From the NCBI GenBank assembly GCA_009783295.1, contig WRHK01000039.1, forward strand, positions 1 to 36,877: a stretch of DNA of 36,877 nt. The letters run 5' to 3'. Shown here piece by piece: positions 4,916 through 36,877 of this stretch. This DNA is from Promicromonosporaceae bacterium. GTDB taxonomy: Bacteria > Actinomycetota > Actinomycetes > Actinomycetales > Cellulomonadaceae. The notes beneath the pieces are model-generated. The model had not been told where the DNA came from and searched no databases. It saw only the letters and a list, made by a program, of their open reading frames with translations. Both the position numbers and the translations under genes were made by a program. The first letter of the stretch is position 1. The number at the start of each line of letters is the position of its first letter.

Positions 4916-5323
4916 ATGGCCACCGTCAGCGTGCGGTACATCGTCGACGACGTCGACGCCGCGATCGCCTTCTACCGCGACCACCTCGGGTTCACCGAGG
5001 TGATGCACCCGGCCCCCGCCTTCGCGATGCTCGACCGCGCCGACCTGCGGCTGCTGCTCAGCGCCCCCGCCGGCGGCCCCGGTGGCGGCGCCGCGATGCC
5101 CGACGGCACGCTCCCCGCCCCCGGCGGCTGGAACCGCTTCACGCTCCAGGTCGACGACGTCGAGGCGCTCGCCGACCGGCTGCGGCAGGCCGGGGTGCGG
5201 TTCCGCAACGACGTGATCACGGGTGTGGGCGGCAAGCAGGTGCTGGTCGAGGACCCGTCGGGCAACCCGGTCGAGCTGTTCGAGCCCACCCGCGACGAGG
5301 CCCGCCTCACCCCCGCGAGCTAG
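4916..5323 (+). CDS. VOC family protein (glyoxalase/bleomycin-resistance fold)
   Basis: Small cytoplasmic protein of 135 residues with the two paired beta-alpha-beta-beta-beta modules of the vicinal oxygen chelate fold. Module one starts at VRYIVDDVDAAIAFY and module two at FTLQVDDVEALADRL. The C-terminal strand DPSGNPVELFEP carries the usual metal-ligand Glu. The first-module ligand position is not a clear His, so metal binding is uncertain. Members act as dioxygenases, glyoxalases, isomerases or resistance proteins; no specific reaction can be assigned. The ATG is 14 bases after the permease stop, with GTGGAGG just upstream. The TAG stop (5321-5323) lies inside the first unit of a 20-bp-period repeat array. 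Confidence 0.85.
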   Translation: MATVSVRYIVDDVDAAIAFYRDHLGFTEVMHPAPAFAMLDRADLRLLLSAPAGGPGGGAAMPDGTLPAPGGWNRFTLQVDDVEALADRLRQAGVRFRNDVITGVGGKQVLVEDPSGNPVELFEPTRDEARLTPAS

Positions 5324-5366
5324 AGCGGGGCGCCGCGAGTTAGAGCGGGGCGCCGCGAGATACCGC
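5314..5366. repeat. Three-unit array of the CGCGAGATAGAGC repeat, 20-bp period
   Basis: Related 13-nt cores begin at 5314 (CGCGAGCTAGAGC), 5334 (CGCGAGTTAGAGC) and 5354 (CGCGAGATACCGC), exactly 20 bp apart with 7-nt spacers. The array covers the last codons and stop of the VOC gene and ends six bases before the SNF2 stop codon, so it fills a convergent gene junction. The same repeat in the same period forms the larger array at 8715-8916 on the other side of the SNF2 gene. Function unknown. Confidence 0.85.
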
Positions 5367-5371
5367 GCGCG

Positions 5372-8300
5372 TCACTCGAACAGGGCCCGCACGTCCGCGG
5401 CGTCGATCGCCCCCGCGAACCGCTCGGCGTCGTCGTCCAGCACGGCGTCGACCAGGCGGGCCTTGCGGTCCTTGAGGGCCATGACCTTCTCCTCGATGGT
5501 GCCGCTCGCCACCAGGCGCACCACCATGACGGGCTTGTCCTGGCCGATGCGATGCGTGCGGTCCACGGCCTGCGCCTCCGTGGCGGGGTTCCACCACGGG
5601 TCGAGCAGGTACACGTAGTCGGCCTCGGTGAGGTTGAGGCCGAACCCGCCCGCCTTGAGCGAGATGAGGAACAGCGGGGCCTCGCCCTCCTTGAAGCCCT
5701 CGATCACCGCCGGGCGGTTGCGCGTGGACCCGTCGAGGTACGCGTACTCGATGCCTGCCTCCCGGCAGCGCTGCGCCACAAGGTCCAGATAGCTGGTGAA
5801 CTGCGAGAACACCAGCGCCCGGTGCCCCTCGGCGACGACCTCGGGCAGCTGCTCGAACAGGGCGTCCAGCTTGCTCGACGGCACGCGGGCGTACGCCACC
5901 GGGTCCACCAGGGACGCGTCCAGGGCCATGCGCCGCAGCGTGGTCAGGGCCCGGAACACGGCCACCCGGTTCGCCTCGAAGTCCTCCAGCAGCCCCAGCA
6001 CGCGCTTGCGCTCGCGCTGCAGGTGGGTGTCGTAGACGGTGCGGTGCCGCTGTGCCAGGTCGACGGCGACCACCTGCTCCTGCCGCTCGGGCAGCTCGGG
6101 GGCCACCTGCTCCTTGGTACGCCGCAGCATCAGGGGCCGCACCCGCCGCTGGAGCCGGGCGAGCGTGTCGCGGGAGTGCTGGCGCATGCGGGCGTCGGCG
6201 TCGGGGCGGTGCGCCGCCTCGATGGGCCGCACGTAGTCCTCGCGGTAGTGCTGCAGGGACCCGAACAGCCCCGGCGCCACCACGGCGAGCAGCGCCCACA
6301 GCTCGGTCACGTTGTTCTCGAGCGGCGTGCCCGTGATCGCGAGCTTGAAGGGGGCCCGCAGCGCGCGGGCGTGCTGGTTGGCGCGCGTGGCGTGGTTCTT
6401 GACGAACTGCGCCTCGTCGAGCACCAGCCCCGACCAGCCGAGCGCCGCGAACTCCGCGTTCTCCAGCCGGAACACGGCGTACGACGTCAGGACGACGTCG
6501 GCCCCCGCGGCCGCATCGGCCAGCCGCGTGCCCGCCCGCGCCGACGTCGCGGGGCGGACCGCCACGCGCAGGTGCGGCGTGAACCGGGCCGCCTCGGCCG
6601 CCCAGTTGCCCACCACCGACGCGGGCGCCACCACGAGGAACGGGGGAGCGTCCGGATCCCGCTCGCGGGCGTGCGCGAACAGCGCGAGCGCCTGGAGCGT
6701 CTTGCCGAGCCCCATGTCGTCGGCCAGGATCCCGCCCAGCCGGTGCTCCCAGCAGAACGCGAGCCACTCGAAGCCGTGCTGCTGGTAGGGGCGCAGCGTG
6801 GCCGTCACGGACGCGGGCACCTTCACCGCGGCGGGGGCCTGCTCGCCCGTGGTCAGCGCGAGCAGGCCGCCCACGGACTCGCGCCAGGCGTCGGCCTGCT
6901 CGACGACGTCGGCCACCTCGGCGAGCTCGTCCCACAGGGCGGCCTGGTGCCGGGTCACCTGCAGGCGGCCTCGGCGGTCGCTGAGGCGGTCGGCCTCGTC
7001 GAGCAGCACGCGCAGGCGCTCGAGCGACGGGTGGTTGAGCCGCAGCCACGACCCGTCCGCCAGCAGGAGGCGCTTCTTGCCGCGGGAGAGCGCCTCCAGG
7101 ATGTTGCCGAGCGGCACGTCGTGCCCGTCGACAGTGACCGTCACGGCGAGGTCGAACCAGTCGGCGTCCTCGGCGTCACGCGCGGCGAGCGCGATCTGCG
7201 GCGTCGCCGTGAGCTCGGCGTAGTCGGGCCGGCCGAGCACACGCACCTCGACGCCTTCAAGCCCGTCGAGCGCCGGGAGGATCTCGAGCGCCAGGTCGAG
7301 AGCGCCCAGGCCCGTGACCTCCAGCCGCTCGACGAGCGTCGCCTCCGCCAGCCCGGCCGCCCGGTAGGCAGCCTCGACCCGTTCGACGATCTCCCGCTCC
7401 ACCGGCAGGTCGCGTGCCACGGCGTCGGCCGCCGACGGCGCGAACGGGTGGTGGCGGGCGTCGGCCACGCCGTCGGGCGTCGAGTACATCCACCCGGCGA
7501 GCACGGTCGCCTTGGCGGCGCCCTCGAACGCAGCGGTCAGCACCAGCGTGGGCGTGGCCGGCTCGGGGAACGTGACCGAGGCGTCGCTGCTGGTCAGGGT
7601 GACCTGCTGGCGCAGGGTGGGCAGGTACTCGCGCATGAGCCGCGGCTCGTCCGGCTCCGGGACGGAGAGGTCGCCGTCGACGGCGAGCAGCGTGGCCGCC
7701 GCGGGGGACAGCGGGCCCGGTGCGGGACCGAGCGTCACGACCCAGCCGTTCGACTCGCCCGGGCGCACCGTGAACAGCCCGTGGTCGCCGGCCGCGCCGC
7801 GCAGGGCTGCGGCGTCGAGCACGCCGTCGACCAGCAGCTGCGGAGTCAGGCGCAGCTCGCCGGCCGACCGCGTCGCGTCGACCACCAGCTCGGTGCCGCC
7901 CGCGAGCACGACGACGTCGCGCGCCGCGGTGCCGACGAACGGGACGCCGAGCCCGCGACCGCGCTCCAGGTGCGGCCACAGCAGCCGGCCCGGGAACTCG
8001 CCCAGGGGCGTCCAGTCCGACGAGCCCCAGAAGCCCTGGCCGCGCAGGGCGCCGAGCTCCGACAGCCATTCGCGGGAGCGCGGCTCCCAGCGGTCGGCGT
8101 AGTACTCGCGGCGCAGCGCGTCCCAGCTGACGTCCCAGCCGGCCGACCAGGTGCCCTTGGCCCCGCGGCGGACCGGGCGGATCGAGATGGTCAGGGCGCG
8201 CTCTCCGGCGGCGCGGCGCCTGGCGGCGTCGCGCACCAGGCCGTCGACGCGCACCTGGAGGCCCAGCGGCGTCGTCTCGGCGGGCGCCACCGGCGTGGAG

Positions 8301-8683
8301 GCCGCGGCCGCCATCACCTGGTCGAGGGACCGCTGCCAGGCGGGGGCCGCGGCCGCCTTGGTGGGCGGCGTGGGGCGGGTGCCGGGCGTCCCGAGCGCAG
8401 CGAGGAAGACGGCGACGACGTGCTTGCAGTCGACGCCGACGGGGCAGCTGCAGGCGCCGGCCTCGGGCATCGGGCCGTGCGGGCCTGCGGTGAGGTAGGC
8501 CCGCGTCGTGTAGGTGCGCGCCCCGGTGCCGCGGACCCGCGCGGAGAGCACCAGGTCGTCCGGGTCCCAGCCCAGCCGCGTGACGCGCCCCTGCTGCCAG
8601 TAGGCGGTGCCGCGGGTGTACGTCGGGGCGTCGACGAGCCGGGCGACGTCGGAGGGAGAGAACCCGGTCAGCCGAACAGACAC
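5372..8683 (-). CDS. SWIM zinc-finger SNF2-family helicase
   Basis: Large DNA-dependent ATPase of 1103 residues, SWI2/SNF2 type. Near the N-terminus is a SWIM zinc finger: Cys78-x-Cys80 and Cys86-x-His88. A long middle region of about 500 residues has no motif I recognise. The ATPase core follows: DDMGLGKT (Lys661), the DEAQ box (Asp756), TGTPLENN, then the second RecA-like lobe with LVFSQFTSYLD, SLKAGGFGLNL and the end motif DRTHRIGQ. Such proteins translocate on duplex DNA and remodel protein-DNA complexes; bacterial members act in transcription recycling, repair or defence. The GTG start at 8683 is supported by a GGGAGG ribosome site eight bases upstream. It is bracketed by two arrays of one repeat family. 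Its promoter must lie in the upstream array or be shared with ktrBA. Confidence 0.95.
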   Translation of the reverse strand: MSVRLTGFSPSDVARLVDAPTYTRGTAYWQQGRVTRLGWDPDDLVLSARVRGTGARTYTTRAYLTAGPHGPMPEAGACSCPVGVDCKHVVAVFLAALGTPGTRPTPPTKAAAAPAWQRSLDQVMAAAASTPVAPAETTPLGLQVRVDGLVRDAARRRAAGERALTISIRPVRRGAKGTWSAGWDVSWDALRREYYADRWEPRSREWLSELGALRGQGFWGSSDWTPLGEFPGRLLWPHLERGRGLGVPFVGTAARDVVVLAGGTELVVDATRSAGELRLTPQLLVDGVLDAAALRGAAGDHGLFTVRPGESNGWVVTLGPAPGPLSPAAATLLAVDGDLSVPEPDEPRLMREYLPTLRQQVTLTSSDASVTFPEPATPTLVLTAAFEGAAKATVLAGWMYSTPDGVADARHHPFAPSAADAVARDLPVEREIVERVEAAYRAAGLAEATLVERLEVTGLGALDLALEILPALDGLEGVEVRVLGRPDYAELTATPQIALAARDAEDADWFDLAVTVTVDGHDVPLGNILEALSRGKKRLLLADGSWLRLNHPSLERLRVLLDEADRLSDRRGRLQVTRHQAALWDELAEVADVVEQADAWRESVGGLLALTTGEQAPAAVKVPASVTATLRPYQQHGFEWLAFCWEHRLGGILADDMGLGKTLQALALFAHARERDPDAPPFLVVAPASVVGNWAAEAARFTPHLRVAVRPATSARAGTRLADAAAGADVVLTSYAVFRLENAEFAALGWSGLVLDEAQFVKNHATRANQHARALRAPFKLAITGTPLENNVTELWALLAVVAPGLFGSLQHYREDYVRPIEAAHRPDADARMRQHSRDTLARLQRRVRPLMLRRTKEQVAPELPERQEQVVAVDLAQRHRTVYDTHLQRERKRVLGLLEDFEANRVAVFRALTTLRRMALDASLVDPVAYARVPSSKLDALFEQLPEVVAEGHRALVFSQFTSYLDLVAQRCREAGIEYAYLDGSTRNRPAVIEGFKEGEAPLFLISLKAGGFGLNLTEADYVYLLDPWWNPATEAQAVDRTHRIGQDKPVMVVRLVASGTIEEKVMALKDRKARLVDAVLDDDAERFAGAIDAADVRALFE

Positions 8684-8714
8684 CGATGGAGCCTCCCACG
8701 CCCCGCCGACAAGG

Positions 8715-8916
8715 GCTCTGTCTGGCGTGGCGGCGTGCTATCTCGCGATCGCGGGCTCTATCTCCCGAACCGAAGCTCTATCTCGCGCCCACCCGTGCTA
8801 TCTCGCGAGATAGAGCGGGTCCCCGCGAGATAGCACGTGGCCCTGCGAGATAGAGCGGGCCCATGCGAGATAGAGCGGGCACATGCGAGATAGAGCCCGC
8901 GCGCGCGAGACAGAGC
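8715..8916. repeat. Mirror-symmetric 20-bp-period repeat array upstream of the SNF2 gene
   Basis: Five 13-nt cores point left, starting at 8715, 8735, 8755, 8775 and 8795 (GCTCTATCTCGCG or close variants). Six point right, starting at 8804, 8824, 8844, 8864, 8884 and 8904 (CGCGAGATAGAGC or variants). Every start is exactly 20 bp from the next, and the 7-nt spacers differ. Orientation flips at the palindrome TATCTCGCGAGATA (8799-8812), so each left unit mirrors a right unit about 8805/8806 and the whole 200 bp could fold as a cruciform. The outermost units (8715, 8904) are the most degenerate. The array occupies nearly the whole gap between ktrA and the SNF2 start. Confidence 0.92.
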
Positions 8917-8921
8917 GCCCC

Positions 8922-9614
8922 TCACGGGCGGGCCGCGAAGCGTTCCAGGACGTCCGCGTGGCCGCCGCACACGATGAGGTCCGTCGCCATCACACGCGTC
9001 TGCGGGGTCGCGTACTGGAACTCGTGGCCCGGCGACTTCACGCCGATCACCGTGACCCCGTACCGGCGGCGCACCGCGGACTGCTCGATCGTGAACCCCT
9101 GCATCTCCAGCGGGGGGCGCATCTTGACGATCGTGAAGTCGTCCTCGACCTCGATGTAGTCGAGCATCTTGCCGCTGACCAGGTGCGCAACCCGTGCCCC
9201 GGCGTCGGACTCGGGGTAGACGACGTGGTGCGCGCCGATGCGCTGGAGGATGCGCCCGTGCTCGGCCGTGACGGCCTTGGCCCAGATCTGCGGCGTGCCC
9301 AGGTCGACCAGGTTGGCGGTGACCAGCACCGACGCCTCCAGCGAGGTGCCCATGCCGACGACGGCGACCCGGAAGTCCCGCGCGCCGAGCTGTTCGAGCG
9401 CCTCGGGGTTGGTGGCGTCGGCCTGCACGAGCGGCAGCCGTCCGGACCACTGCGCCACGCGCGTCTCGTCCTTCTCGACGGCGAGCACGTCCTGCCCCAG
9501 CCGGTCGAGGGCGGCGGCGATCGCCGACCCGAACCGTCCCAGGCCCACCACGAGCACGCCGGCGTCGCGGTCGCGCGGTCGTCGCTCCTTCGCGGGTGTG
9601 CTGGTCTCCGGCAT
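8922..9614 (-). CDS. ktrA: KtrA/TrkA-type potassium uptake regulatory subunit
   Basis: Cytoplasmic RCK protein (230 residues) that gates the KtrB potassium channel in response to bound nucleotides. The N-terminal Rossmann domain begins VLVVGLGRFGSAIA (GxGxxG) and an acidic residue follows the second strand (VEKDE). The C-terminal TrkA-C domain covers about residues 140-225. Two starts are possible: ATG at 9614 has a GAGAGGGG ribosome site five bases upstream; ATG at 9629 overlaps the ktrB stop (ATGA). I chose 9614 for its ribosome site; 9629 adds five residues. It is co-transcribed with ktrB. Its stop codon is five bases from the repeat array. Confidence 0.93.
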   Translation of the reverse strand: MPETSTPAKERRPRDRDAGVLVVGLGRFGSAIAAALDRLGQDVLAVEKDETRVAQWSGRLPLVQADATNPEALEQLGARDFRVAVVGMGTSLEASVLVTANLVDLGTPQIWAKAVTAEHGRILQRIGAHHVVYPESDAGARVAHLVSGKMLDYIEVEDDFTIVKMRPPLEMQGFTIEQSAVRRRYGVTVIGVKSPGHEFQYATPQTRVMATDLIVCGGHADVLERFAARP

Positions 9615-9625
9615 GGGGGCCCCTC

Positions 9626-11014
9626 TCATCCGATGATCGGGCGTTCCTCGGGGAACCTAATGATGCGGCGCCTGTCGCGCAGCGCGAGCGCGGCGGCGAA
9701 GGTCATGGACCCGGTGCGCCCCACGAACATGAGCCCGCAGAGCACGTACTTGGCGGCGTCGGGCAGGTGCGGGGTGATGCCGGTGGACAGCCCGCAGGTG
9801 GCGAACGCCGAGATCACCTCGAACAGCACCTTGTCGAGCGACAGGCCGGTGAGCTCGAGCAGCGCCATCGACCCGGCCAGCACCGCCGTCGCGCCGAGGA
9901 ACACGACGGCGATGGCGACGCGCAGCGTGTCGCGGGGGATGCGGCGCCCGTACGCCTCGATGTCCTTGTCGCCGCGGGCCTCGGCGACGATGGCGAGCAG
10001 CATGACGGCCAGCGTCGTCACCTTGATGCCGCCACCGGTCGACGCCGAGCCGCCGCCCACGAACATGAGCGCGTCGGTCACCAGCAGGGTCGGTTCGTTC
10101 ATGGACCCGACGTCGACGGTGCTGAACCCTGCGGAGCGGGGCATCACCCCGGCGAACAGCGAGGCCAGCACCTTGGACCCGGCGGGCAGCGGCCCGAACG
10201 TCGCCGGGTTGTGCCACTCGAGCGCCCCGACGAGCAGGGTCCCGACGGCCACGAGGGCGGCGCTCGTCACGAGGGTCAGCTTGGTGTGCAGCGACCAGTG
10301 CACCCAGGCGCGGCGGCCCCGGCGCCGGGTGGACAGGATGTTGAGGATCACGGGGAAGCCGAGCGCGCCCACGAACACACCGAGGATCAGCGGCAGCCCC
10401 AGCCACCAGTCGCCCACGTGGGGCCGCAGCCCCTCCTCGGTGGGCACGAACCCGGCGTTGTTGAACGCCGAGACCCCGTAGAAGATGGCGTGCCAGACGG
10501 CCTTGCCCACCGACTCGTGGAGGGTCAGGAACCGTGGGAACAGCAGGAGCGCCACGACGGCCTCGAGCGACGTCGAGGTCACGATGACCACGCGCACCAG
10601 CGAGCCGACCTCGCCGAGCCGGTCCGTCCGCGTCTCCGACGCCGTGAGCATGCGCTGCGTCAGGCCGATGCGCCGGGACACGGCCAGGCCCAGGATCGAG
10701 GCGAGCGTCATGACGCCGAACCCGCCCACCTTGATCGCGACGAGGATCACCACCTGCCCGCCGACCGACCAGTAGGTGGCGGTGTCGACCACGGTGAGAC
10801 CTGTCACGCAGACGGCGGACACGGCGGTGAACAGCGCGTCGACGAACGGCGCCCCCGCCTTGCCCGCCGCCGTGGCCCACGGCATGAGCAGCAGCACGGT
10901 GAACAGCGCGCACACCCCGAGGAACACGGTGACGGCGAGGCGGGCGGGCGACTGACGGGCGGCCCGGTCCACGATCTCGCGCAGGCCCAGGACGCTGCCC
11001 GTTCCTCGCGCCAT
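9626..11014 (-). CDS. ktrB: KtrB/TrkH-type potassium transporter
   Basis: Membrane potassium (or sodium-coupled potassium) transporter of 462 residues, built from four repeated M1-P-M2 units. All four selectivity-filter loops are visible, each with the key Gly: CVTGLTV, SAFNNAGF, PRSAGFSTV and FATCGLSTG. The gating loop region GSASTGGGIKV sits in the third unit, as in KtrB/TrkH. The ATG at 11014 has GAGGAGG six bases upstream; longer in-frame extensions to 11176 run into the divergent acuC gene and are not credible. It forms the KtrAB system with the overlapping downstream ktrA. Confidence 0.94.
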   Translation of the reverse strand: MARGTGSVLGLREIVDRAARQSPARLAVTVFLGVCALFTVLLLMPWATAAGKAGAPFVDALFTAVSAVCVTGLTVVDTATYWSVGGQVVILVAIKVGGFGVMTLASILGLAVSRRIGLTQRMLTASETRTDRLGEVGSLVRVVIVTSTSLEAVVALLLFPRFLTLHESVGKAVWHAIFYGVSAFNNAGFVPTEEGLRPHVGDWWLGLPLILGVFVGALGFPVILNILSTRRRGRRAWVHWSLHTKLTLVTSAALVAVGTLLVGALEWHNPATFGPLPAGSKVLASLFAGVMPRSAGFSTVDVGSMNEPTLLVTDALMFVGGGSASTGGGIKVTTLAVMLLAIVAEARGDKDIEAYGRRIPRDTLRVAIAVVFLGATAVLAGSMALLELTGLSLDKVLFEVISAFATCGLSTGITPHLPDAAKYVLCGLMFVGRTGSMTFAAALALRDRRRIIRFPEERPIIG

Positions 11015-18823: not shown

Positions 18824-18922
18824 ATGGGCTCCGTCATCAAGAAGCGCCGCAAGCGCATGGCGAAGAAGAAGCACCGCAAGCTGCTTCGCAAGACGCGTCA
18901 CCAGCGTCGCAACAAGAAGTGA
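18824..18922 (+). CDS. Small ribosomal protein bS22 (AURKAIP1/COX24 domain)
   Basis: A 32-residue, extremely basic protein (MGSVIKKRRKRMAKKKH at the start; Lys and Arg make up over half of it). It matches the actinobacterial AURKAIP1/COX24-domain protein found in mycobacterial small ribosomal subunits and named bS22. It is too short for routine gene callers. Support is strong: AGGAGG (18813-18818) five bases before the ATG, an upstream -10 box, and a perfect terminator seven bases after the stop. It forms a single-gene unit, convergent with the HAD phosphatase. Confidence 0.93.
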   Translation: MGSVIKKRRKRMAKKKHRKLLRKTRHQRRNKK

Positions 18923-18928
18923 CCTACC

Positions 18929-18961
18929 GAGGCCCGGTTCCCGCTCAGGGAACCGGGCCTC
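18929..18961 (+). terminator. Rho-independent-type terminator after bS22
   Basis: Perfect 14-bp stem GAGGCCCGGTTCCC with loop GCTCA, followed by a T-containing tail (GTGGTTTGTTCC). It starts seven bases after the bS22 stop and ends 12 bases before the stop of the convergent HAD gene, so it may serve both. Confidence 0.88.
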
Positions 18962-18973
18962 GTGGTTTGTTCC

Positions 18974-19786
18974 TTACCGCAGCTCGAGCCGCTTGCGCAC
19001 CTGGCGGCGGATCGCCCGCACCACCAGCCCGGCCGCCCACGCGGCCCCGGCCCACGACGCCGTCTTGACGCTGCGCCGCGCCACGCGGACGGGCCGCCCA
19101 CGGAACTCGCGGATGGGCCAGCCCACCTCGCGCGCGTGCCGGCGCAGGCGGCCGTCGGGGTTGATGGGGCACGGGTGGCCGACGGCGGTCATCATCGGCA
19201 GGTCGTTCAGGGAGTCGCCGTACGCGTACGACGCCTCGAGGTCGAGGTTCTCGCGCTCGGCCAGCTCGCGGACGGCGTCGGCCTTGACCGCGCCGTGCAT
19301 GAGGTCGCCCAGCAGGCGGCCCGTGTAGTAGCCGTCCTTGTGCTCGGCGATGGTGCCGAGGCAGCCCGTGGCGCCCAGGCGGCGCGCGATGAGCCGCCCG
19401 ATCTCGGCCGGCGTCGCCGTGACGAGCCACACCTGGTCGCCCGCGGCGATGTGCGCGTCCAGCAGCTTCTTGGTGCCGGGGAAGATCCGCAGCTCGAGGA
19501 CGGTGTCGTAGACCTCCTCGCCCACGGCCGTCACCTCGGCCACCGAGCGCCCCGCGATGAGCGACAGCGCGCGCTCGCGCACCGCGTCGATCTGCTCCTT
19601 GGACTCCCCGAACAGCAGGTAGCGGGCCTGGATGAAGGCGAAGCGCACCAGGTCGGCCGTGCCGAAGAACTTGCGCTGGTACAGCGCCCGCGCCAGGTGG
19701 TAGGCGCTGGCCCCGCGGATCACGGTGTTGTCGACGTCGAAGAACGCGGCGGCCTGGCGTGGAGGCGTTGCGCTGGCGTCGGACAT
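18974..19786 (-). CDS. HAD-IB family phosphatase (SerB-like)
   Basis: Hydrolase of 270 residues in the haloacid dehalogenase subfamily IB, the group of phosphoserine phosphatase. Motif I is FFDVDNT with nucleophile Asp17 and acid/base Asp19, motif II is VTATP, and motif III is YGDSLNDLPMM. The C-terminal 40 residues contain a short hydrophobic stretch (WAGAAWAAGLVV) with many Arg/Lys, suggesting membrane association. The ATG at 19786 follows AAGGTGGG. Longer in-frame starts would enter the divergent glutaredoxin gene. The substrate is not predictable; a small phosphate ester is likely. Confidence 0.88.
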   Translation of the reverse strand: MSDASATPPRQAAAFFDVDNTVIRGASAYHLARALYQRKFFGTADLVRFAFIQARYLLFGESKEQIDAVRERALSLIAGRSVAEVTAVGEEVYDTVLELRIFPGTKKLLDAHIAAGDQVWLVTATPAEIGRLIARRLGATGCLGTIAEHKDGYYTGRLLGDLMHGAVKADAVRELAERENLDLEASYAYGDSLNDLPMMTAVGHPCPINPDGRLRRHAREVGWPIREFRGRPVRVARRSVKTASWAGAAWAAGLVVRAIRRQVRKRLELR

Positions 19787-20134: not shown

Positions 20135-20797
20135 GTGATCGAGACCGGCGACGTGGCGGTCCCGGCGGCGACGGTGGCTCGCCTGCCCTACTACCTGCGC
20201 GCCCTGCGCGACCTCGAGGCGGCGGGCGTCCGCACGACGTCGTCGACGGAGCTCGCCGAGGCGTCCGGGGTCGGCTCCGCGCAGCTGCGCAAGGACCTGT
20301 CCTACCTGGGCTCGTTCGGCACGCGCGGCGTGGGGTACGACGTCGGGTCGCTGGGCGGCGTGATCTCGGGCGCGCTGGGGCTCGGGTCCGTGCACCGGCT
20401 CGCCATCATCGGCATCGGCAACCTGGGCCAGGCGCTGGCCAACTACTCGGGCTACACGCAGCGCGGGTTCCAGGTAGTGGCGCTGCTGGACGTGTCGCCG
20501 GCCGTCGTGGGCACGCGGCCGTCGGGCGGGCTCGCCGTCGAGCCGCTGGACGCGCTGGAGCACGTGATCGCCCGCGAGGGCGTCACCATGGTGGTCATCG
20601 CGACGCCCGGGCCGGCCGCGCAGGCCGTCGCCGAGCGCGTCGTCGGCGCCGGGGTGCGGGAGATCCTGTCGTTCGCGCCGGTGGCCCTCCAGCTGCCCGA
20701 CGACGTCGTGGTGCGCAGCGTCGACGTCGCCGGCGAGCTGCAGATCCTGGCCTTCCACGCAGCGGCCCGGGCCGCGACTGCGACCCGGGCCGGCTGA
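20135..20797 (+). CDS. rex: Redox-sensing transcriptional repressor Rex
   Basis: NADH/NAD+-sensing repressor of 220 residues. The N-terminal winged helix spans about residues 15-70, with the recognition part SGVGSAQLRKDLSYLG and the conserved FGTRGVGYDV wing. The Rossmann domain begins IIGIGNLGQALANY with GxGxxG at 93-98, and the C-terminal helix ends LQILAFHA. Rex binds TTGTGA-type palindromes when NADH is low and releases them when NADH rises. The GTG at 20135 has GGAGG (20125-20129) five bases upstream. A perfect candidate operator is present at 31946-31965 next to menB. Confidence 0.97.
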   Translation: MIETGDVAVPAATVARLPYYLRALRDLEAAGVRTTSSTELAEASGVGSAQLRKDLSYLGSFGTRGVGYDVGSLGGVISGALGLGSVHRLAIIGIGNLGQALANYSGYTQRGFQVVALLDVSPAVVGTRPSGGLAVEPLDALEHVIAREGVTMVVIATPGPAAQAVAERVVGAGVREILSFAPVALQLPDDVVVRSVDVAGELQILAFHAAARAATATRAG

Positions 20798-20805
20798 ACG
20801 TCCCC

Positions 20806-20840
20806 GGTGGTCGAGCCCGTCGACGACAGGCTCAACCGCC
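20806..20840. terminator. Imperfect hairpin of the GGTGGTCGAGCC family after rex
   Basis: GGTGGTCGAGCCCGTCG pairs with the downstream CGACAGGCTCAACCGCC at 14 of 17 positions. It starts eight bases after the rex stop and ends 11 bases before the convergent yceI stop. It is probably a bidirectional terminator. Its arms share the core of the 22-nt element found inside resA, resB, ccsB and menD. Confidence 0.65.
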
Positions 20841-20851
20841 GATCAGTTGGC

Positions 20852-21403
20852 TCAGTTCTTGACGATCGTCGAGATGTCGAGGGCGATCTTGACCTTGTCG
20901 CCCACCAGGAAGCCGCCGGTCTCGAGGGCCGCGTTCCAGGTCAGGCCGAAGTCGGCGCGCGAGATCTCGAGCTCGGTCTCGAAGCCGGCGCGGTTGTTGC
21001 CGAACGGGTCGGTGGCGGTGCCGGTGAACTCGGTCTCGAGCTCGACCTGCTTGGTGACGCCGTTGATCTGCAGGTCGCCCACGACGACGAGGTCGTTGCC
21101 GTCGGCCTTGACGGACGTCGACGTGAACGTCCACGTCGGGCGCTCCTCGGCGTGCCAGAAGTCGGCGCTCTTGAGGTGGTTGTCGCGGTTCTCGTCGCCC
21201 GTGCTCACCTGGGCGGCGTCGAGCTCGGCGACGACGGCCGACGACTCGACGTCGTCGCCGACGGTGATGGTGCCAGACGCGATGCCGATGGTCCCGCGGA
21301 CCTTCGCGATGCCGGCGTGCCGGACGGAGAAGGACGCGGTGGAGTGCGCGGCGTCGATGACGTAGGTACCGGCGGTGAGGCCGGTGGGCAGCGGCGTGGC
21401 CAT
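20852..21403 (-). CDS. YceI family lipid-binding protein
   Basis: Eight-stranded lipocalin-like protein of 183 residues that binds polyisoprenoid or similar lipids. Family signs: YVIDAAHSTASFSVRHAGIAKVRG at the start (continuous), HLKSADFWHAEERPTW in the middle, DLQINGVTKQVEL, and ISRADFGLTWNAALETGG near the end. No signal peptide is seen, so it is probably cytoplasmic, as is common in actinobacteria. The ATG at 21403 has GAGGAG seven bases upstream. It is divergent from a MarR regulator, with a palindromic operator between them. Confidence 0.92.
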   Translation of the reverse strand: MATPLPTGLTAGTYVIDAAHSTASFSVRHAGIAKVRGTIGIASGTITVGDDVESSAVVAELDAAQVSTGDENRDNHLKSADFWHAEERPTWTFTSTSVKADGNDLVVVGDLQINGVTKQVELETEFTGTATDPFGNNRAGFETELEISRADFGLTWNAALETGGFLVGDKVKIALDISTIVKN

Positions 21404-25809: not shown

Positions 25810-26783
25810 CCTCGGAGCAGATCGGCAACCTGAGCGAGGTGCTCGTCTGGGCCACGCTCGTGTGCTTCACGATCGCGCTCGTCGCGTTCGCCGTCGACCT
25901 GGCGCGGCGCACCGACGCGCGGACGACGTCGCGCGCGGCCGAGAAGGAGCTGGTGGGCGCGGGTGGCCCTGCGCCTTCGACGGGCTCGGCCGCCGCGGTG
26001 GTCGAGCCCGTCGAGACCCCGACCCGCCGTCGTGCCGCCGGCATCGCGATGTCCACCACCGTGCTGGGCGACCTGCTGCTGCTCGCCGGCATCGTGAGCC
26101 GCGGCATCGCCGCCGGGCGCACCCCGTGGGCCAACATGTACGAGTTCACGCTGGTCGGGTCCTTCGTGGCCGTCACCGTGTTCCTGGTGGTGGGCACGCG
26201 CCGCGACGTGCGGTTCCTCGGCGCGTTCGTCACCGGCATCGCCGCCGTGTTCCTCACGCTGGGCCTCAACGTGTTCTACATCGCCGCGATGGGCGTGCAG
26301 CCGGCGCTGCAGTCGTACTGGCTGGTGCTGCACGTCGGCGTCGCGATCTCCGCCACGGGCGTGTTCACCGTGGCGTTCGCCGCCTCGGTGCTGCAGCTGT
26401 TGCGCACCGCGCGCGACGGCGGCGCCGCGCTCATGTCCGGCTGGCGCTGGCTCGACCGCATCCCCACGCCGCAGTCCCTCGAGGCGCTCTCGTTCCGCCT
26501 CAACGCCGTCGGGTTCGTGCTGTGGACGTTCACGATCATCGGCGGCGCCATCTGGGCCGAGCACGCCTGGGGCCGCTACTGGGGCTGGGACCCCAAGGAG
26601 ACCTGGTCGTTCGTGATCTGGACCGTGTACGCCGCCTACCTGCACGCGCGCACCACGCGCGGCTGGGCGGGCACGCGAGCCGCCTGGTTCGTGGTGGTCG
26701 GCTACGTGTGCGTGCTGTTCAACTTCACGGTGGTCAACCTGGTGATCAACGGCCTGCACAGCTACTCGGGCCTGACGAGCTGA
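25806..26783 (+). CDS. ccsB: Cytochrome c biogenesis protein CcsB (CcsA-type haem handler)
   Basis: Membrane protein of 325 residues that presents haem for attachment to apocytochrome c. The diagnostic tryptophan-rich WWD segment is HAWGRYWGWDPKETWSF, with conserved His residues in WLVLHVGVAIS and near the C-terminus in NGLHSYSGL. About eight helices are predicted. The ATG overlaps the resB stop (ATGA). Between helices one and two an Ala/Pro-rich linker, PSTGSAAAVVEPVETP, is encoded by two opposed copies of the 22-nt repeat, a sign of insertion into a tolerant site. The operon ends here, followed by a 62-nt hairpin. Confidence 0.95.
   Translation: MTSEQIGNLSEVLVWATLVCFTIALVAFAVDLARRTDARTTSRAAEKELVGAGGPAPSTGSAAAVVEPVETPTRRRAAGIAMSTTVLGDLLLLAGIVSRGIAAGRTPWANMYEFTLVGSFVAVTVFLVVGTRRDVRFLGAFVTGIAAVFLTLGLNVFYIAAMGVQPALQSYWLVLHVGVAISATGVFTVAFAASVLQLLRTARDGGAALMSGWRWLDRIPTPQSLEALSFRLNAVGFVLWTFTIIGGAIWAEHAWGRYWGWDPKETWSFVIWTVYAAYLHARTTRGWAGTRAAWFVVVGYVCVLFNFTVVNLVINGLHSYSGLTS
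25974..26018. repeat. Two opposed copies of the 22-nt element in ccsB
   Basis: The right copy is GGTGGTCGAGCCCGTCGAGA plus CC (25997-26018). The left copy, CCTTCGACGGGCTCGGCCGC plus C (25974-25994), is close to its reverse complement. Together they form an inverted repeat inside the coding sequence, translated as PSTGSAAAVVEPVET. Confidence 0.8.
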
Positions 26784-26799
26784 GCTTCTTCCTGCTGTA

Positions 26800-26861
26800 G
26801 TTGTGGGTCCCTGGGACTCCGGTTATCCGGGTGGATAAGCGGAGCCCCAGGGACCCACAAC
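26800..26861. terminator. 62-nt near-perfect hairpin between ccsB and the PLDc_N gene
   Basis: The outer arms GTTGTGGGTCCCTGGG (26800-26815) and CCCAGGGACCCACAAC (26846-26861) are perfect complements. The inner arms CTCCG-G-TTATCC and GGATAA-G-CGGAG pair except at two single-base positions, around the loop GGGT. The stem is about 29 bp, far longer than a normal terminator. It lies between two convergent genes (ccsB stop 26783, PLDc_N stop 26869) and probably ends both transcripts. It could also be a relic of a small mobile element. Confidence 0.85.
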
Positions 26862-26868
26862 GACCTCG

Positions 26869-27183
26869 TCAGGGCGTCGGCGGTTGCGGCGGGTCGTTGC
26901 GGTGGCGGTTCTCGTCCAGGTGGCGCAGGAAGTCCGGGTCGTCGTCGGGCGCCATCGGGCGCGTGCGGCGGGACGCGCTGCTGCGACCGCGGTCCGGCGT
27001 CGTGCCGTTCGAGCGACGGAACAGGATCCACGCGAGGCCGCCCACCACGGGCACGAACACGATGACCAGCGCCCACAACCACTTGGGCAGCCCGCCCGCC
27101 TCCTCCTTGCGCGCCCCTGCGAGGTCCGCGAGAGCGTAGACGGCAAGGCCGATCACCAGCAGCGTGAGCACGAAGCGGGCCAT
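26869..27183 (-). CDS. PLDc_N domain membrane protein
   Basis: Small membrane protein of 104 residues with two helices (FVLTLLVIGLAVYALADLA and WLWALVIVFVPVVGGLAWILF), the second followed by RR, as in the phospholipase D N-terminal (PLDc_N) domain. The C-terminal 45 residues are hydrophilic and rich in Asp, Arg and Pro. No phospholipase catalytic HKD motif is present. Proteins of this type are common in actinobacteria and have no known function. A TACTCT box (27195-27190) six bases before the ATG indicates a leaderless start. Divergent from the DUF4229 gene. Confidence 0.85.
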   Translation of the reverse strand: MARFVLTLLVIGLAVYALADLAGARKEEAGGLPKWLWALVIVFVPVVGGLAWILFRRSNGTTPDRGRSSASRRTRPMAPDDDPDFLRHLDENRHRNDPPQPPTP

Positions 27184-27236: not shown

Positions 27237-27536
27237 GTGCCTCTTGTCCTGTACTCGCTCTGGCGGGTGGTCGTGCTCCTCGCGGCCTTCGGTCTGCTGA
27301 TCCTCGTCGGCGCGCACCCGCTGCTCGCGGGCGTGATCGCCATCGTCATCGCGTCCGCGGTGTCGTACCTGTTCCTGCGCAAGCAGCGCGACGCCTCGAC
27401 GGCGTGGCTCGCCGCCCGTGCGGACGCCCGCAGGGCCCGCCGCGCCGCGGGCGAGAAGACCCGGTTCGAGCGCCAGCTCGCCGAGGACGACGCCGTCGAG
27501 GACGCGGAGGCGGCGCAGGAGCTGGAGGGCCGCTAG
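27237..27536 (+). CDS. DUF4229 family membrane protein
   Basis: Protein of 99 residues: two hydrophobic helices (YSLWRVVVLLAAFGLLILVG and LLAGVIAIVIASAVSYLFL) then a charged helical tail rich in Ala, Arg and Glu (ARADARRARRAAGEK), which may form a coiled coil. This is the DUF4229 layout, a family regularly found beside menA in actinobacteria. A membrane role in the quinone or cytochrome region is suggested only by position. The start GTG follows a TACCCT box. The stop lies just before the GATCGGAACGTGC repeat array. Confidence 0.85.
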   Translation: MPLVLYSLWRVVVLLAAFGLLILVGAHPLLAGVIAIVIASAVSYLFLRKQRDASTAWLAARADARRARRAAGEKTRFERQLAEDDAVEDAEAAQELEGR

Positions 27537-27556
27537 CGGGGCGGGCCCGCCCGCGC

Positions 27557-27628
27557 GATCGGAACGTGCGCAGGGGATCGGAACGTGCAGCAGGCCGCAC
27601 GTTCCGATCCCCTTCCCACGTTCCGATC
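27557..27628. repeat. Mirror array of GATCGGAACGTGC repeats, 19-bp period
   Basis: Two forward copies of the 13-nt core GATCGGAACGTGC start at 27557 and 27576. Two reverse copies start at 27597 (GCACGTTCCGATC) and 27616 (CCACGTTCCGATC). Each pair is spaced exactly 19 bp. The inner copies form a perfect 16-bp stem with an 8-nt loop (27573-27612), which could end transcription of both the DUF4229 gene and the convergent menA. The design (13-nt cores, fixed period, inversion at the centre) is like the 8715-8916 array, but the sequence is unrelated. Confidence 0.85.
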
Positions 27629-27654
27629 AGCTCGTCGCGACGTGACGAGCCGCG

Positions 27655-28530
27655 TCAGGCCGAGAGCGCCAGCCCCAGCGCCAGCAGCACCCCGAACCCG
27701 AGCTCGAACATGCCCGTCCCCGCCAGCACCGGCACCAGGAGCTTGCCGCGCGCCCCCGCCATCACGGGCAGCGTGAGCAGCAGCGCCGGGGCGGCCAGCA
27801 GCACCACCAGCAGCGACCACGGCGCCCAGAAGGCGCACGCGGCGCCGAGCAGCAGCGGCAGCCAGATCCCCGCGACGTAGGCGCGGCGCGCGCGGTCGTC
27901 GCCCAGCCGCACCGCGAGGGTGCGCTTGCCGGCGACGACGTCGGTGGGGATGTCGCGCAGGTTGTTGACCATGAGCAGCGCACAGGCGATGAGCCCCACG
28001 CCCACGGCGCCCAGCACCGACGGCCACGTGAGCCTGCCGGCCTGTGTATAGGTGGTGCCGAGCGTGGCCACCAGCCCGAAGAACACGAACACGCCGACCT
28101 CGCCCAGCCCGGCGTACCCGTACGGCCGCTTGCCGCCGGTGTAGAACCAGGCGGCCGCGACGCACGCGGCGCCCACGGCGAGCAGCCACCAGTGCCCGGA
28201 CAGCCAGGTGAGCCACAGGCCCAGCAGGCCGGCGACGCCGAACGCCGCGAACGCCGCCGCCCTCACGTGCCCGGGCCGGGCCACGCCCGACGCCGTCAGC
28301 CGCAGCGGGCCGACGCGGTCGAGGTCGGTGCCGCGCACGCCGTCGGAGTAGTCGTTGGCGTAGTTGACGCCCACCTGGAGCGCGAGCGCGACGCCGAGGG
28401 CCAGCAGCGCCCGGCCGAACGCGAACGCCCCGGCCTGCCCGGCCGCGGCCGACCCGATGAGCACGGGCGCGGTGGCGGCGGGAAGGGTGCGGGGGCGGGC
28501 CCCGGCGATCCACTCGGCGGGCGTGGCCAT
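27655..28530 (-). CDS. menA: 1,4-dihydroxy-2-naphthoate polyprenyltransferase MenA
   Basis: Membrane prenyltransferase of 291 residues that joins the isoprenoid chain to dihydroxynaphthoate, forming demethylmenaquinone. Both Asp-rich motifs are visible: NYANDYSDGVRGTD (binds the diphosphate through Mg2+) and NNLRDIPTDVVAGKRTLAVRLGD. About eight or nine helices are predicted. The ATG at 28530 has AGGAG a few bases upstream. It follows menE by 28 bases on the same strand, so the two are probably one operon. Confidence 0.96.
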   Translation of the reverse strand: MATPAEWIAGARPRTLPAATAPVLIGSAAAGQAGAFAFGRALLALGVALALQVGVNYANDYSDGVRGTDLDRVGPLRLTASGVARPGHVRAAAFAAFGVAGLLGLWLTWLSGHWWLLAVGAACVAAAWFYTGGKRPYGYAGLGEVGVFVFFGLVATLGTTYTQAGRLTWPSVLGAVGVGLIACALLMVNNLRDIPTDVVAGKRTLAVRLGDDRARRAYVAGIWLPLLLGAACAFWAPWSLLVVLLAAPALLLTLPVMAGARGKLLVPVLAGTGMFELGFGVLLALGLALSA

Positions 28531-35201: not shown

Positions 35202-36877
35202 ATGAGCACCGAGAACCACGACCAGCAGCCCGCCGCGCCGGAGGGCTCGACGCCCGTCACGCCCGAGCCGCCCGTGCAGCCGGAGCCCGCCCCGCCCGCC
35301 CAGACCGGGCCCGAGCCGACCCAGCAGCACGCGACCCCGCCGGCGCCCCCTGCCCCGGTCGAGGCCACGGCGCCCCAGCAGCCCGCGCTGCCGCACCCCG
35401 TCCAGCAGGTGCCTGCGCCGCAGCCGCAGCACCCGCAGGGCCAGCCCACGCAGGAGCTGCACCCGCAGCAGCACCCGACGGCCCCGTACCCCACGCAGCC
35501 GCCGGCCCCGCAGCCGCAGTACGGCCAGTACGCCCAGTCGCACTACGGCCACTCGCCGTACGGGCACCCGGCCCCGCAGCAGCGTCCGCCGTACCCGACG
35601 CAGCAGGGCCCGCAGGCCCCGGGGCAGCACCAGCCTGGCGCCGCGTTCCACAACCCGTACGCGGCGCAGGACGCGGAGCGACCGGCCGAGCAGCGCAAGC
35701 CGCGCTCCTGGGCCCCGGTCGCGATCGCGGCCGTCGTCGCCGCAGCCCTGGCCAGCGGCGGCACGGCCCTGGCCGTGGACGCGTTCGGCAACCACGGCAC
35801 GCCGACGTCGATCGCCTCGATCGGCGACCCGGGACGTGTCGACTCGGCGCCGGTCACGGACTCGTCTGCCGCGAACCCCGACTGGCAGGCCGTCATCGCC
35901 GCGGTGTCGCAGTCCGTGGTGTCCATCCAGGTCACCAGCCAGAACGGTGGCGCGGAGGGCTCCGGCTTCATCCTCGACGCCAAGGGCCACGTGCTCACCA
36001 ACAACCACGTCGTCTCGGGCGCCCAGAACAACACTGTCCAGGTGACGCTGTCGGACGGCCGCCTGTTCGACGCCAAGATCGTGGGCACCGACCCCACCAC
36101 CGACATGGCCGTGGTCGAGCTCCAGAACGCGCCGTCGGACCTCAAGCCGGTGGCGCTCGGCAACTCCGCCGACGTCAAGGTGGGCGACCCCGTGCTCGCC
36201 GTCGGCAACCCGCTCGGCCTGGCCAACACGGCCACGACCGGCATCGTGTCCGCGCTCGACCGCCCCGTCACGGCGTCCGGCGAGGACCAGCAGACCCCCA
36301 CCACCACCAACGCGATCCAGATCGACGCGGCCATCAACCCCGGCAACTCGGGCGGCCCGCTGTTCGACGCGACGGGCCGCGTCATCGGCATCACATCGTC
36401 GATCGCCAGCCTGTCCAGCAGCTCCTCGGGCGGGCAGTCCGGGTCGATCGGCCTCGGGTTCGCCATCCCGATCAACCTGGCCAAGAACATCAGCAACCAG
36501 CTGATCGAGCACGGCACCGCGCAGCACGCGTTCCTCGGCGTCACCATGCAGGACGGCACTGCCACCGCCGACGGCGTCACCCGTCGCGGCGCGCAGGTCA
36601 TCTCGGTGTCGAGCGGGTCGCCCGCGGCAGCCGCCGGGATCCAGGCCGGCGACGTCATCGTGGCGATCGGCGACCAGCCGGTCAGCGGCGCCGACTCGCT
36701 CACGGCGTTCGTCCGCGAGCACCAGGCCGGCGACAAGATCAGCCTGACGGTGGTGCGCGGCGGCAAGGCCTCGCAGATCGGCGTCACGCTCGCGGTGCGC
36801 GACGAGTCGAGCCAGAGCGGCTCGGGCTCCGGCTCGGGGGGGTCCGGCGGCTCCGGCCCGGGGGGCCCGGGCCCGGG
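35202..36877 (+). CDS. HtrA/DegP-like membrane-anchored serine protease (3' end cut)
   Basis: Trypsin-like S1C protease with its active site outside the membrane; 558 codons are visible. Residues 1-165 are a cytoplasmic Pro/Gln-rich, low-complexity region (PQPQHPQGQPTQ, repeated YPTQ and YGQY/YGH). One helix follows (about 170-191). The protease has the full triad: His269 in TNNHVVSG, Asp301 in TTDMAVVEL and Ser383 in NPGNSGGPL. A PDZ domain (about 445-530) contains GVTMQDG and SPAAAAGIQAGDVIVAIG. A Gly/Ser/Pro tail then runs off the window. The ATG has AGGA five bases upstream and GAGGAGG 11 bases upstream. Such proteases handle envelope stress and misfolded proteins. The 91-base gap after menD shows no clear terminator. 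Confidence 0.95.
   Translation, partial: MSTENHDQQPAAPEGSTPVTPEPPVQPEPAPPAQTGPEPTQQHATPPAPPAPVEATAPQQPALPHPVQQVPAPQPQHPQGQPTQELHPQQHPTAPYPTQPPAPQPQYGQYAQSHYGHSPYGHPAPQQRPPYPTQQGPQAPGQHQPGAAFHNPYAAQDAERPAEQRKPRSWAPVAIAAVVAAALASGGTALAVDAFGNHGTPTSIASIGDPGRVDSAPVTDSSAANPDWQAVIAAVSQSVVSIQVTSQNGGAEGSGFILDAKGHVLTNNHVVSGAQNNTVQVTLSDGRLFDAKIVGTDPTTDMAVVELQNAPSDLKPVALGNSADVKVGDPVLAVGNPLGLANTATTGIVSALDRPVTASGEDQQTPTTTNAIQIDAAINPGNSGGPLFDATGRVIGITSSIASLSSSSSGGQSGSIGLGFAIPINLAKNISNQLIEHGTAQHAFLGVTMQDGTATADGVTRRGAQVISVSSGSPAAAAGIQAGDVIVAIGDQPVSGADSLTAFVREHQAGDKISLTVVRGGKASQIGVTLAVRDESSQSGSGSGSGGSGGSGPGGPGP

Follow-up and report, generated by a model that had tools for sequence, protein, structure and literature searches.

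A dispersed, multi-genus family of inverted repeat arrays with a near-constant step at bacterial gene 3′ ends

Introduction

What produces, and what retains, a mirror-symmetric row of eleven short repeats in exact 20-bp register between two genes of an actinobacterial genome? Such a row lies in the window analysed here, that is, the whole 36,877-nt stretch of DNA, which belongs to a 3.98-Mb assembly of 119 contigs (G000). A first-pass annotation, made from the letters of the window, had suggested either selection for spacing, as in iterons or protein sites on one face of DNA, or a repeat-copying process, and knew of no named element of this form. Small palindromic repeats are common at bacterial gene 3′ ends, so the way in which they spread matters; in the portion of PMC2817692 drawn on here, a mechanism of spread is proposed mainly for the RAYT-linked class.

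Results

The array occupies positions 8715 to 8916 and consists of eleven 13-nt units, five on the minus and six on the plus strand, separated by 7-nt spacers, with every tandem step at 20 bp. The left arm (8715–8807), in which the core CGCGAGATAGAGC is read on the minus strand, has 13-mers starting at 8715, 8735, 8755, 8775 and 8795, and the right arm (8804–8916, plus strand) has 13-mers starting at 8804, 8824, 8844, 8864, 8884 and 8904; the array inverts at its centre, TATCTCGCGAGATA (8799–8812). The unit starts, the 20-bp step, the 7-nt spacers and the inversion had been claimed in the first-pass annotation and proved correct. The longest same-strand chain with a 20-bp step in the window comprised six units; 60 length-matched first-order Markov sequences gave chains of one unit at most. 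Decay toward the ktrA end, also claimed, is seen in the right end unit (CGCGAGACAGAGC), but the left outer end decays too (CGCCAGACAGAGC). Mirror-paired units do differ at few bases, as had been noticed, but the better register leaves the innermost right unit as a hairpin loop: partners then share 13, 12, 11, 10 and 12 of 13 bases, whereas the register originally proposed gives somewhat worse values of 11, 11, 11, 10 and 10.

The array fills the gap between two minus-strand genes, one encoding a TrkA_N (KtrA-like) protein (8922–9629), with its stop codon 5 nt away, and one encoding an SNF2-family helicase (5372–8683), with its called start 31 nt away. Read in the direction of the TrkA mRNA, positions 8690–8925 (minus strand) are predicted to form a hairpin of −147.2 kcal/mol, with a z of −7.8 relative to 200 dinucleotide shuffles. 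At its stop codon, the SNF2 gene borders a second, smaller array (5315–5366, plus strand), which has three units in one orientation at a 20-bp step and lies between convergent genes; the glyoxalase-family gene on its other side (4916–5323, plus strand) uses the TAG of the first unit (5321–5323) as its stop codon. Searching Rfam over the window gave zero matches at the gathering score. Separately, short tandem repeats (15–24 bp; tandem repeat finder) occur at 35251–35629 within the last predicted gene of the window.

Across G000, the exact sequence GCGAGATAGAGC occurs 190 times (94 + 96). We examined 55 stretches and the window, 263 kb in all, chosen around sites found, which hold 164 of the 190 exact cores and leave 26 outside. 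Script detection in these stretches returned 63 rows, and 56 arrays with at least two units; seven single-unit rows and the duplicate locus L116 were left out before counting. Of the 164 examined cores, 157 lie within arrays and seven are single, two of the latter inside predicted genes. Tandem steps measured exactly 20 bp in 215/231 cases overall and in 215/225 outside genes (21 bp in 4/225), so that the search for similarly phased copies, here and in the relatives described below, removes the concern that the window array is a local accident. Of 12 minus-then-plus junctions, 11 had a step of 10 bp, and plus-then-minus junctions varied from 10 to 43, with 20 the commonest (11/39). By layout, 35 of the 56 arrays were +n−m, nine −n+m, nine of a single orientation and three complex. 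The core of the family is that of the window array, and the spacers carry little information apart from C/G-rich edges.

The unit itself is no palindrome: the core has a minimum free energy of −0.2 kcal/mol and the 20-nt unit a median of −2.3, and stems of at least 7 bp were found in 9 of 332 20-nt units. As regards the terminal GTAG or CGTC tag of REP repeats, the core contains GATAG in G000 and GGTAG in Cellulosimicrobium, with no stem-loop for either to flank. Neighbouring spacers on one arm were alike at 4.24 of 8 positions versus 3.69 between arrays, and 9/121 were identical, which, judged from the sequences, is a sign of recent unit duplication; one array locus carries an 81-bp internal duplication. 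Contig ends come within 60 nt of six arrays and within about 200 nt of six further array remnants, and the repeat arrays may break assemblies, as if by long palindromes. The contigs of G000 that carry an array or a single unit at an end or close to it are C2, C16, C19, C32, C37, C38, C66, C79, C86, C103 and C115.

We then mapped the arrays relative to gene ends, as the first-pass annotation had proposed. Gene calls came from a small codon-usage script rather than a standard gene finder; at 16 loci it overlooked rnz twice and called one neighbouring gene wrongly. The 56 arrays comprised 30 between convergent genes, 14 co-directional, one divergent, eight that border a contig edge or whose neighbours are unknown, and three in predicted genes; leaving out the last two groups gives 45 classifiable arrays. 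The convergent share, 30/45, compares with an expected 20% (p = 1.5e-11), the expectation being taken from 7/35 pairs in the window and 23/128 in stretches of the same-genus genome G008. Arrays occupy almost all of the convergent intergenic gap. Of 74 array ends that face a stop codon, 65 fall between −9 and +30 nt relative to it.

At 76 gene 3′ ends adjoining arrays, the stop lay 2–29 nt ahead of the array in 52, coincided with the TAG of the first unit in 19, of the second in two and of the third in none (p = 2e-7 against equal shares), and fell elsewhere within the array in three. TAG accounted for 22 of the 24 stops within arrays, 5/52 of those outside arrays and 52/228 over all predicted genes. 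The unit next to the gene end was in sense orientation in 56/73 cases, and in 36/52 of those with a stop outside the array (p = 0.008). Insertion at random into gene ends does not fit this stop-codon use of 19, 2 and 0 at units one, two and three.

Subsequently, we folded the arrays that have at least four units in both orientations and lie away from contig edges. All 40 folded better than their shuffles (40 each), with z from −2.5 to −17.1 and a median of −8.8. Over all levels, mirror spacers matched the complement of their partner at 4.29 of 8 positions versus 3.40 between arrays (n = 69), and non-mirror pairing registers gave 3.43 to 4.00. The signal is clearest at the innermost level, where mirror spacers were complementary at 5.03 of 8 positions (n = 34; 0 of 5000 permutations), while complementarity at the outer levels in G000 was not significant (n = 17, 9 and 8). 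Contrary to the earlier description, spacers are not always unrelated: at the innermost level the two arms tend to complement each other. Mirroring among unit variants is modest, with 25/107 left-arm variants recurring at the mirror position versus 14/88 and 8/83 at one-unit shifts. For the nine single-orientation arrays, an arm-to-arm hairpin is impossible. With regard to Rho-independent terminators, a stable hairpin behind the stop is present and a T-rich tail is not: a stretch of 12 nt with at least five T followed in 0 of 63 cases, and a classic intrinsic terminator is disfavoured because this tail is missing.

The layout also recalls uptake sequences. A DNA-uptake-signal-like motif of the USS/DUS type, accumulated in terminator hairpins, would be consistent with the convergent enrichment, with the excess of +n−m over −n+m arrays and with the patchy species distribution; in the sections of PMC1852404 used here, USS pairs are over-represented in tail-to-tail arrangement, show a +− bias, carry T-tails and rarely have same-orientation neighbours. 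We nevertheless regard this origin as very improbable, since tandem copies are the rule here, the hairpins bear no T-tails, and only 2 of 164 exact cores stand single inside genes.

The three arrays within predicted coding sequence (3/56) differ in their step. At L125, whose protein has an FHA domain, the array falls in a proline-rich stretch ahead of that domain; at L142, in a protein of the ThiF family, it follows the ThiF domain; and at L147, in an L-aspartate-oxidase-like protein, it occupies residues 413–427, after the FAD-binding domain, which ends at residue 377, and ahead of the C-terminal domain, which starts at residue 431. All six in-gene tandem steps are 21 bp, against the 4/225 outside genes (Fisher 1e-9). 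Copies in predicted genes thereby preserve the reading frame, and the process that generates or retains the repeat does not depend on a 20-bp step.

Beyond G000, a two-unit GAGATAGAGC pattern was found in 9 of 221 genomes of the same family and a degenerate tandem pattern, CGAGDTAGNG, in 56 of 221, spread over 15 of the 25 genera; outside G000, no genome gave more than four hits in the backwards controls. The backwards control is not independent because GAGATAGAG reads identically backwards, and it was in this way that extra array-bearing genomes came to light. At least five hits of the degenerate pattern occurred in 39 genomes from 8 genera, and genomes with one or two hits may reflect chance. 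Within the source genus, G000 alone of 11 genomes gave matches, four of the other ten being less than 80% complete; in an order-wide sample searched for exact cores only, the exact CGAGATAGAG pair was found in 1 of 396 genomes, G000 itself. A flexible-gap contig scan gave, among the matches listed, mostly unrelated records, and the hits in Cellulosimicrobium, Krasilnikoviella and Microbacterium were used.

The period varies among these relatives: most Cellulosimicrobium listings show 21 bp, G164 19–20 bp, genus g20 19 bp, and G187, G192, G193 and G194 22 bp (some 21), and one Microbacterium locus with three copies (L010) has a 25-bp step. Convergent placement recurs in 18 of 33 rows from relatives, in which overlapping loci repeat some arrays, and a unit TAG serves as stop codon in genera g4, g8 and g21 as well. 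Sampled stretches of G030, a genome that scored zero with the pattern used, show other cores at convergent gene ends, in array-like repeats at L249:1905–1992 (ACTCGGCA-type) and L251:3990–4050 (GCGAGGTAGTGC with a TAG stop). Because G030 has such repeats with zero pattern matches, the repeat family is probably undercounted.

These periods bear on the possibility, which we consider improbable, that the arrays are binding sites for a DNA- or double-stranded-RNA-binding protein placed about two helical turns apart, such as nucleoid or topoisomerase sites between convergent genes. The conservation of the core across genera while spacers vary, the very strict step within one genome, and the closeness of all periods except the 25 bp of Microbacterium to two helical turns would agree with it. 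However, the exact helical phase is not conserved, because the period differs between genomes and inside genes, and plus-minus junctions of 10 to 43 shift one arm off any face. The suggestion of iteron-like sites on one DNA face is accordingly weakened.

Spacers were most informative in G193, where 10 of 12 listed two-arm loci have identical spacers on both arms and the spacers differ between loci; this count covers all 12 listed two-arm loci, not six picked for visible mirroring. Folded whole, three of them gave −112 to −119 kcal/mol for 112–128 nt. In G192, zero-shift mirror identity over six equal-length pairs (0.42 versus 0.47 between loci) was not above background, and three of four loci fold strongly across both arms. 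The look of repeats and spacers, and the constant spacer length, could also suggest a CRISPR- or TIGR-like guide array. That reading was set aside on the strength of the mirrored spacers and the dispersal, and we hold it to be extremely improbable: there are nearly sixty dispersed arrays, most of the two-arm loci in G193 have spacers, 7–12 nt long, that are complementary from one arm to the other, and no effector family was detected in the six window proteins scanned, with TrkA, SNF2 and TrkH as neighbours.

Furthermore, orthologous sites with and without units could be compared. The same-genus genomes G001 and G005 keep the SNF2-TrkA-TrkH order and have no units between TrkA and SNF2. The TrkA C-terminus reads ERFAARP in G000 and G005 and ERFAGRP in G001, and the TrkA/SNF2 gap measures 238 nt in G000 and 100 nt in G005, while the called genes overlap in G001; G010, G008 and G004 have different neighbours at this TrkA-site gene, and G009 yielded no gene calls. 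The convergent gap behind SNF2 measures 48 nt in G000, 9 in G005 and 11 in G001, a comparison that is not strict since the facing gene differs. In Cellulosimicrobium, a comparison at ChaB/rnz searched 17 genomes and yielded 16 rnz-like loci, 14 of them readable. The convergent ChaB-rnz pair is kept in seven, of which five carry 2+3, 3+4, 3+4, 2+2 and 6+1 units, one a single unit and one none. As judged by comparison of genomes, an array is present at a site where two relatives have none, and units have turned over at one site. Of the two processes originally proposed, repeat copying is thus well supported, by some identical neighbouring units, the 81-bp duplication and unit numbers that change at one orthologous site. 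Beyond TrkA, G005 (L254:5689–5881) and G001 (L255:5696–5812) share a further repeated stretch (CCGCTTCGGGCGGGTGCCTCG...), which is absent there in G000 (gap of 11 nt).

The window also contains an array with an unrelated core, GATCGGAACGTGC, at 27557–27628, in the gap 27537–27654 between convergent genes at 27237–27536 (plus) and 27655–28530 (minus). This core has 24 exact copies in G000, and the layout + 19 + 21 − 19 − was found at 12 of the 12 loci examined, one with its outer minus unit too diverged to score. At ten of the 12 a gene 3′ end is no more than 30 nt away, six of these loci being convergent, and one is divergent by script calls. Mirror spacers of this second family agreed at 4.46 of 6 positions versus 2.46 between loci (0 of 20000 permutations), over 13 loci that include one copy from G008 (L234). 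Other convergent gaps of the window hold different structures: those at 26783–26869 and 18922–18974 contain ordinary single long GC-rich hairpins without array units, which make a ready point of comparison, and that at 20797–20852 carries GTCGAGCCCGTCGACGACAGGCTCAACC, which we take to resemble an TTGAGCCTGTCGA-type dispersed actinobacterial repeat.

Together, position and folding raise the question of whether the arrays are purely functional, as bidirectional terminators or mRNA 3′ stabilisers whose hairpins were selected and multiplied because longer stems work better. We think this unlikely, even though such a role would suit arrays that take up nearly the whole convergent gap, their strong folding, spacers that match between arms yet differ between loci, and the prevalence of a sense-oriented unit next to the gene end even where the stop is outside. 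Against it, no U-tract follows the arrays, three arrays sit in coding genes, and the two-unit core is absent from ten same-genus genomes (four less than 80% complete). In such genomes, at one site in G001 and G005 and over 160 kb in G008, gene ends are instead marked by a short gap, an ordinary hairpin or a member of the second family. Moreover, pairing alone does not explain a conserved core sequence.

Discussion

The arrays form a real genome-wide, multi-genus family and are a differently built relative of the known small palindromic repeats of bacteria. On balance, though by a narrow preference, we read them as a dispersed, proliferating REP/RPE-like palindromic-array repeat that is tolerated at gene ends and there becomes the 3′ hairpin of convergent transcripts. 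As far as genome sequences can tell, this reading builds on demonstrated features: the family, its position, its use as stop codon, its hairpin potential, the frame-keeping period inside genes, the empty site and the turnover of units.

In the mechanism that we propose, a core of about 12 nt (CGAGRTAGNGC) would be multiplied, in tandem and in inverse, at steps of about 20 bp by a core-dependent process. Purifying selection would then clear copies from promoters and out-of-frame positions and leave those at gene ends, so that copies would be retained where they do least harm, mostly just behind the stops of convergent gene pairs and in rare cases in frame within proteins. Transcripts entering from either side may fold both arms into one long hairpin that would form the 3′ end structure of both mRNAs, and this hairpin could act as a barrier to read-through, to 3′ exonucleases or to both, as a terminator or stabiliser would.

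Simple copy-paste of one element fails to explain the spread, because spacers differ between loci. A mobilising enzyme was sought as Y1_Tnp (PF01797), the Pfam family that presumably covers RAYTs, and there was no match in 29 array-bearing and array-free genomes; of 14 control genomes, five gave a match in the same search, E. coli among them. We see some chance, well short of even, that the arrays instead represent an undescribed class of repeat, in which a fixed core with fixed-length filler would be added in mirror pairs at new sites rather than copied as a whole element. Its marks would be the conserved 12-nt core, the lineage-specific step of 19–22 bp, the locus-specific, arm-complementary spacers and the two unrelated cores in one genome. 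If true, such a class would call for a new enzyme that recognises the core, or for a repair tract templated by the hairpin.

In Cellulosimicrobium, Krasilnikoviella and their relatives, the family displays the genomic behaviour of REP with another architecture and no detectable Y1 enzyme. Filled and empty orthologous sites, frame-keeping copies and two cores in one genome make both the multiplication and the roles at transcript ends directly testable.

Our literature search, whose coverage excludes most subscription journals, returned no published report of such arrays. Matches to the literal core in papers were dismissed as primer-type text, the titles of those listed being on unrelated subjects. 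The first-pass annotation's view that no named element has this form agrees with that result, but the behaviour fits that published for REP and RPE. Comparable in position are the MIRU of mycobacteria, actinobacterial intergenic repeats that overlap stop or start codons; MIRU are longer direct repeats, in contrast to inverted arrays with a 20-bp step. Three Actinomycetota are named in the part of PMC12306157 available for comparison, and none belongs to the array-bearing genera.

In the passages of PMC1852404 and PMC5217627 that we drew on, USS/DUS terminators of Haemophilus and Neisseria likewise combine a fixed motif of about 10 nt, inverted pairs, convergent gaps and a +− bias; unlike them, the present arrays have no T-tail, commonly contain tandem copies and have almost no isolated copies within genes. 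Rickettsia palindromic elements (RPE), which the excerpt of PMC10969869 describes as insertions of about 150 bp, in frame, in unrelated protein genes, share with 3/56 of our arrays the in-frame placement of hairpin-forming repeats in predicted protein genes, and differ from multi-unit arrays of ~20–21-bp units that are mostly extragenic. REP are reported, in the portion of PMC3733652 consulted, to lie between convergent genes at most 20 bp from both 3′ ends, to supply TAG stops and to occur at times within genes. The present arrays resemble REP/BIME, as these are portrayed there and in part of PMC2817692, in being dispersed and species-specific, in occupying convergent or co-directional gaps near stops, in supplying TAG and in having some copies in genes; opposite-orientation neighbours may, in both, fold together. 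They lack two features of the REP-RAYT class, a stem-loop unit of 20–40 bp and a cognate Y1-type transposase, and they differ further in units that are not palindromes, tandem runs of strict period and locus-specific spacers, with no Y1_Tnp match in the 29 genomes. In behaviour, by contrast, they act as REP/BIME do: they are extragenic, lie at 3′ ends and favour convergent over co-directional and divergent gaps (30, 14 and 1 of 45).
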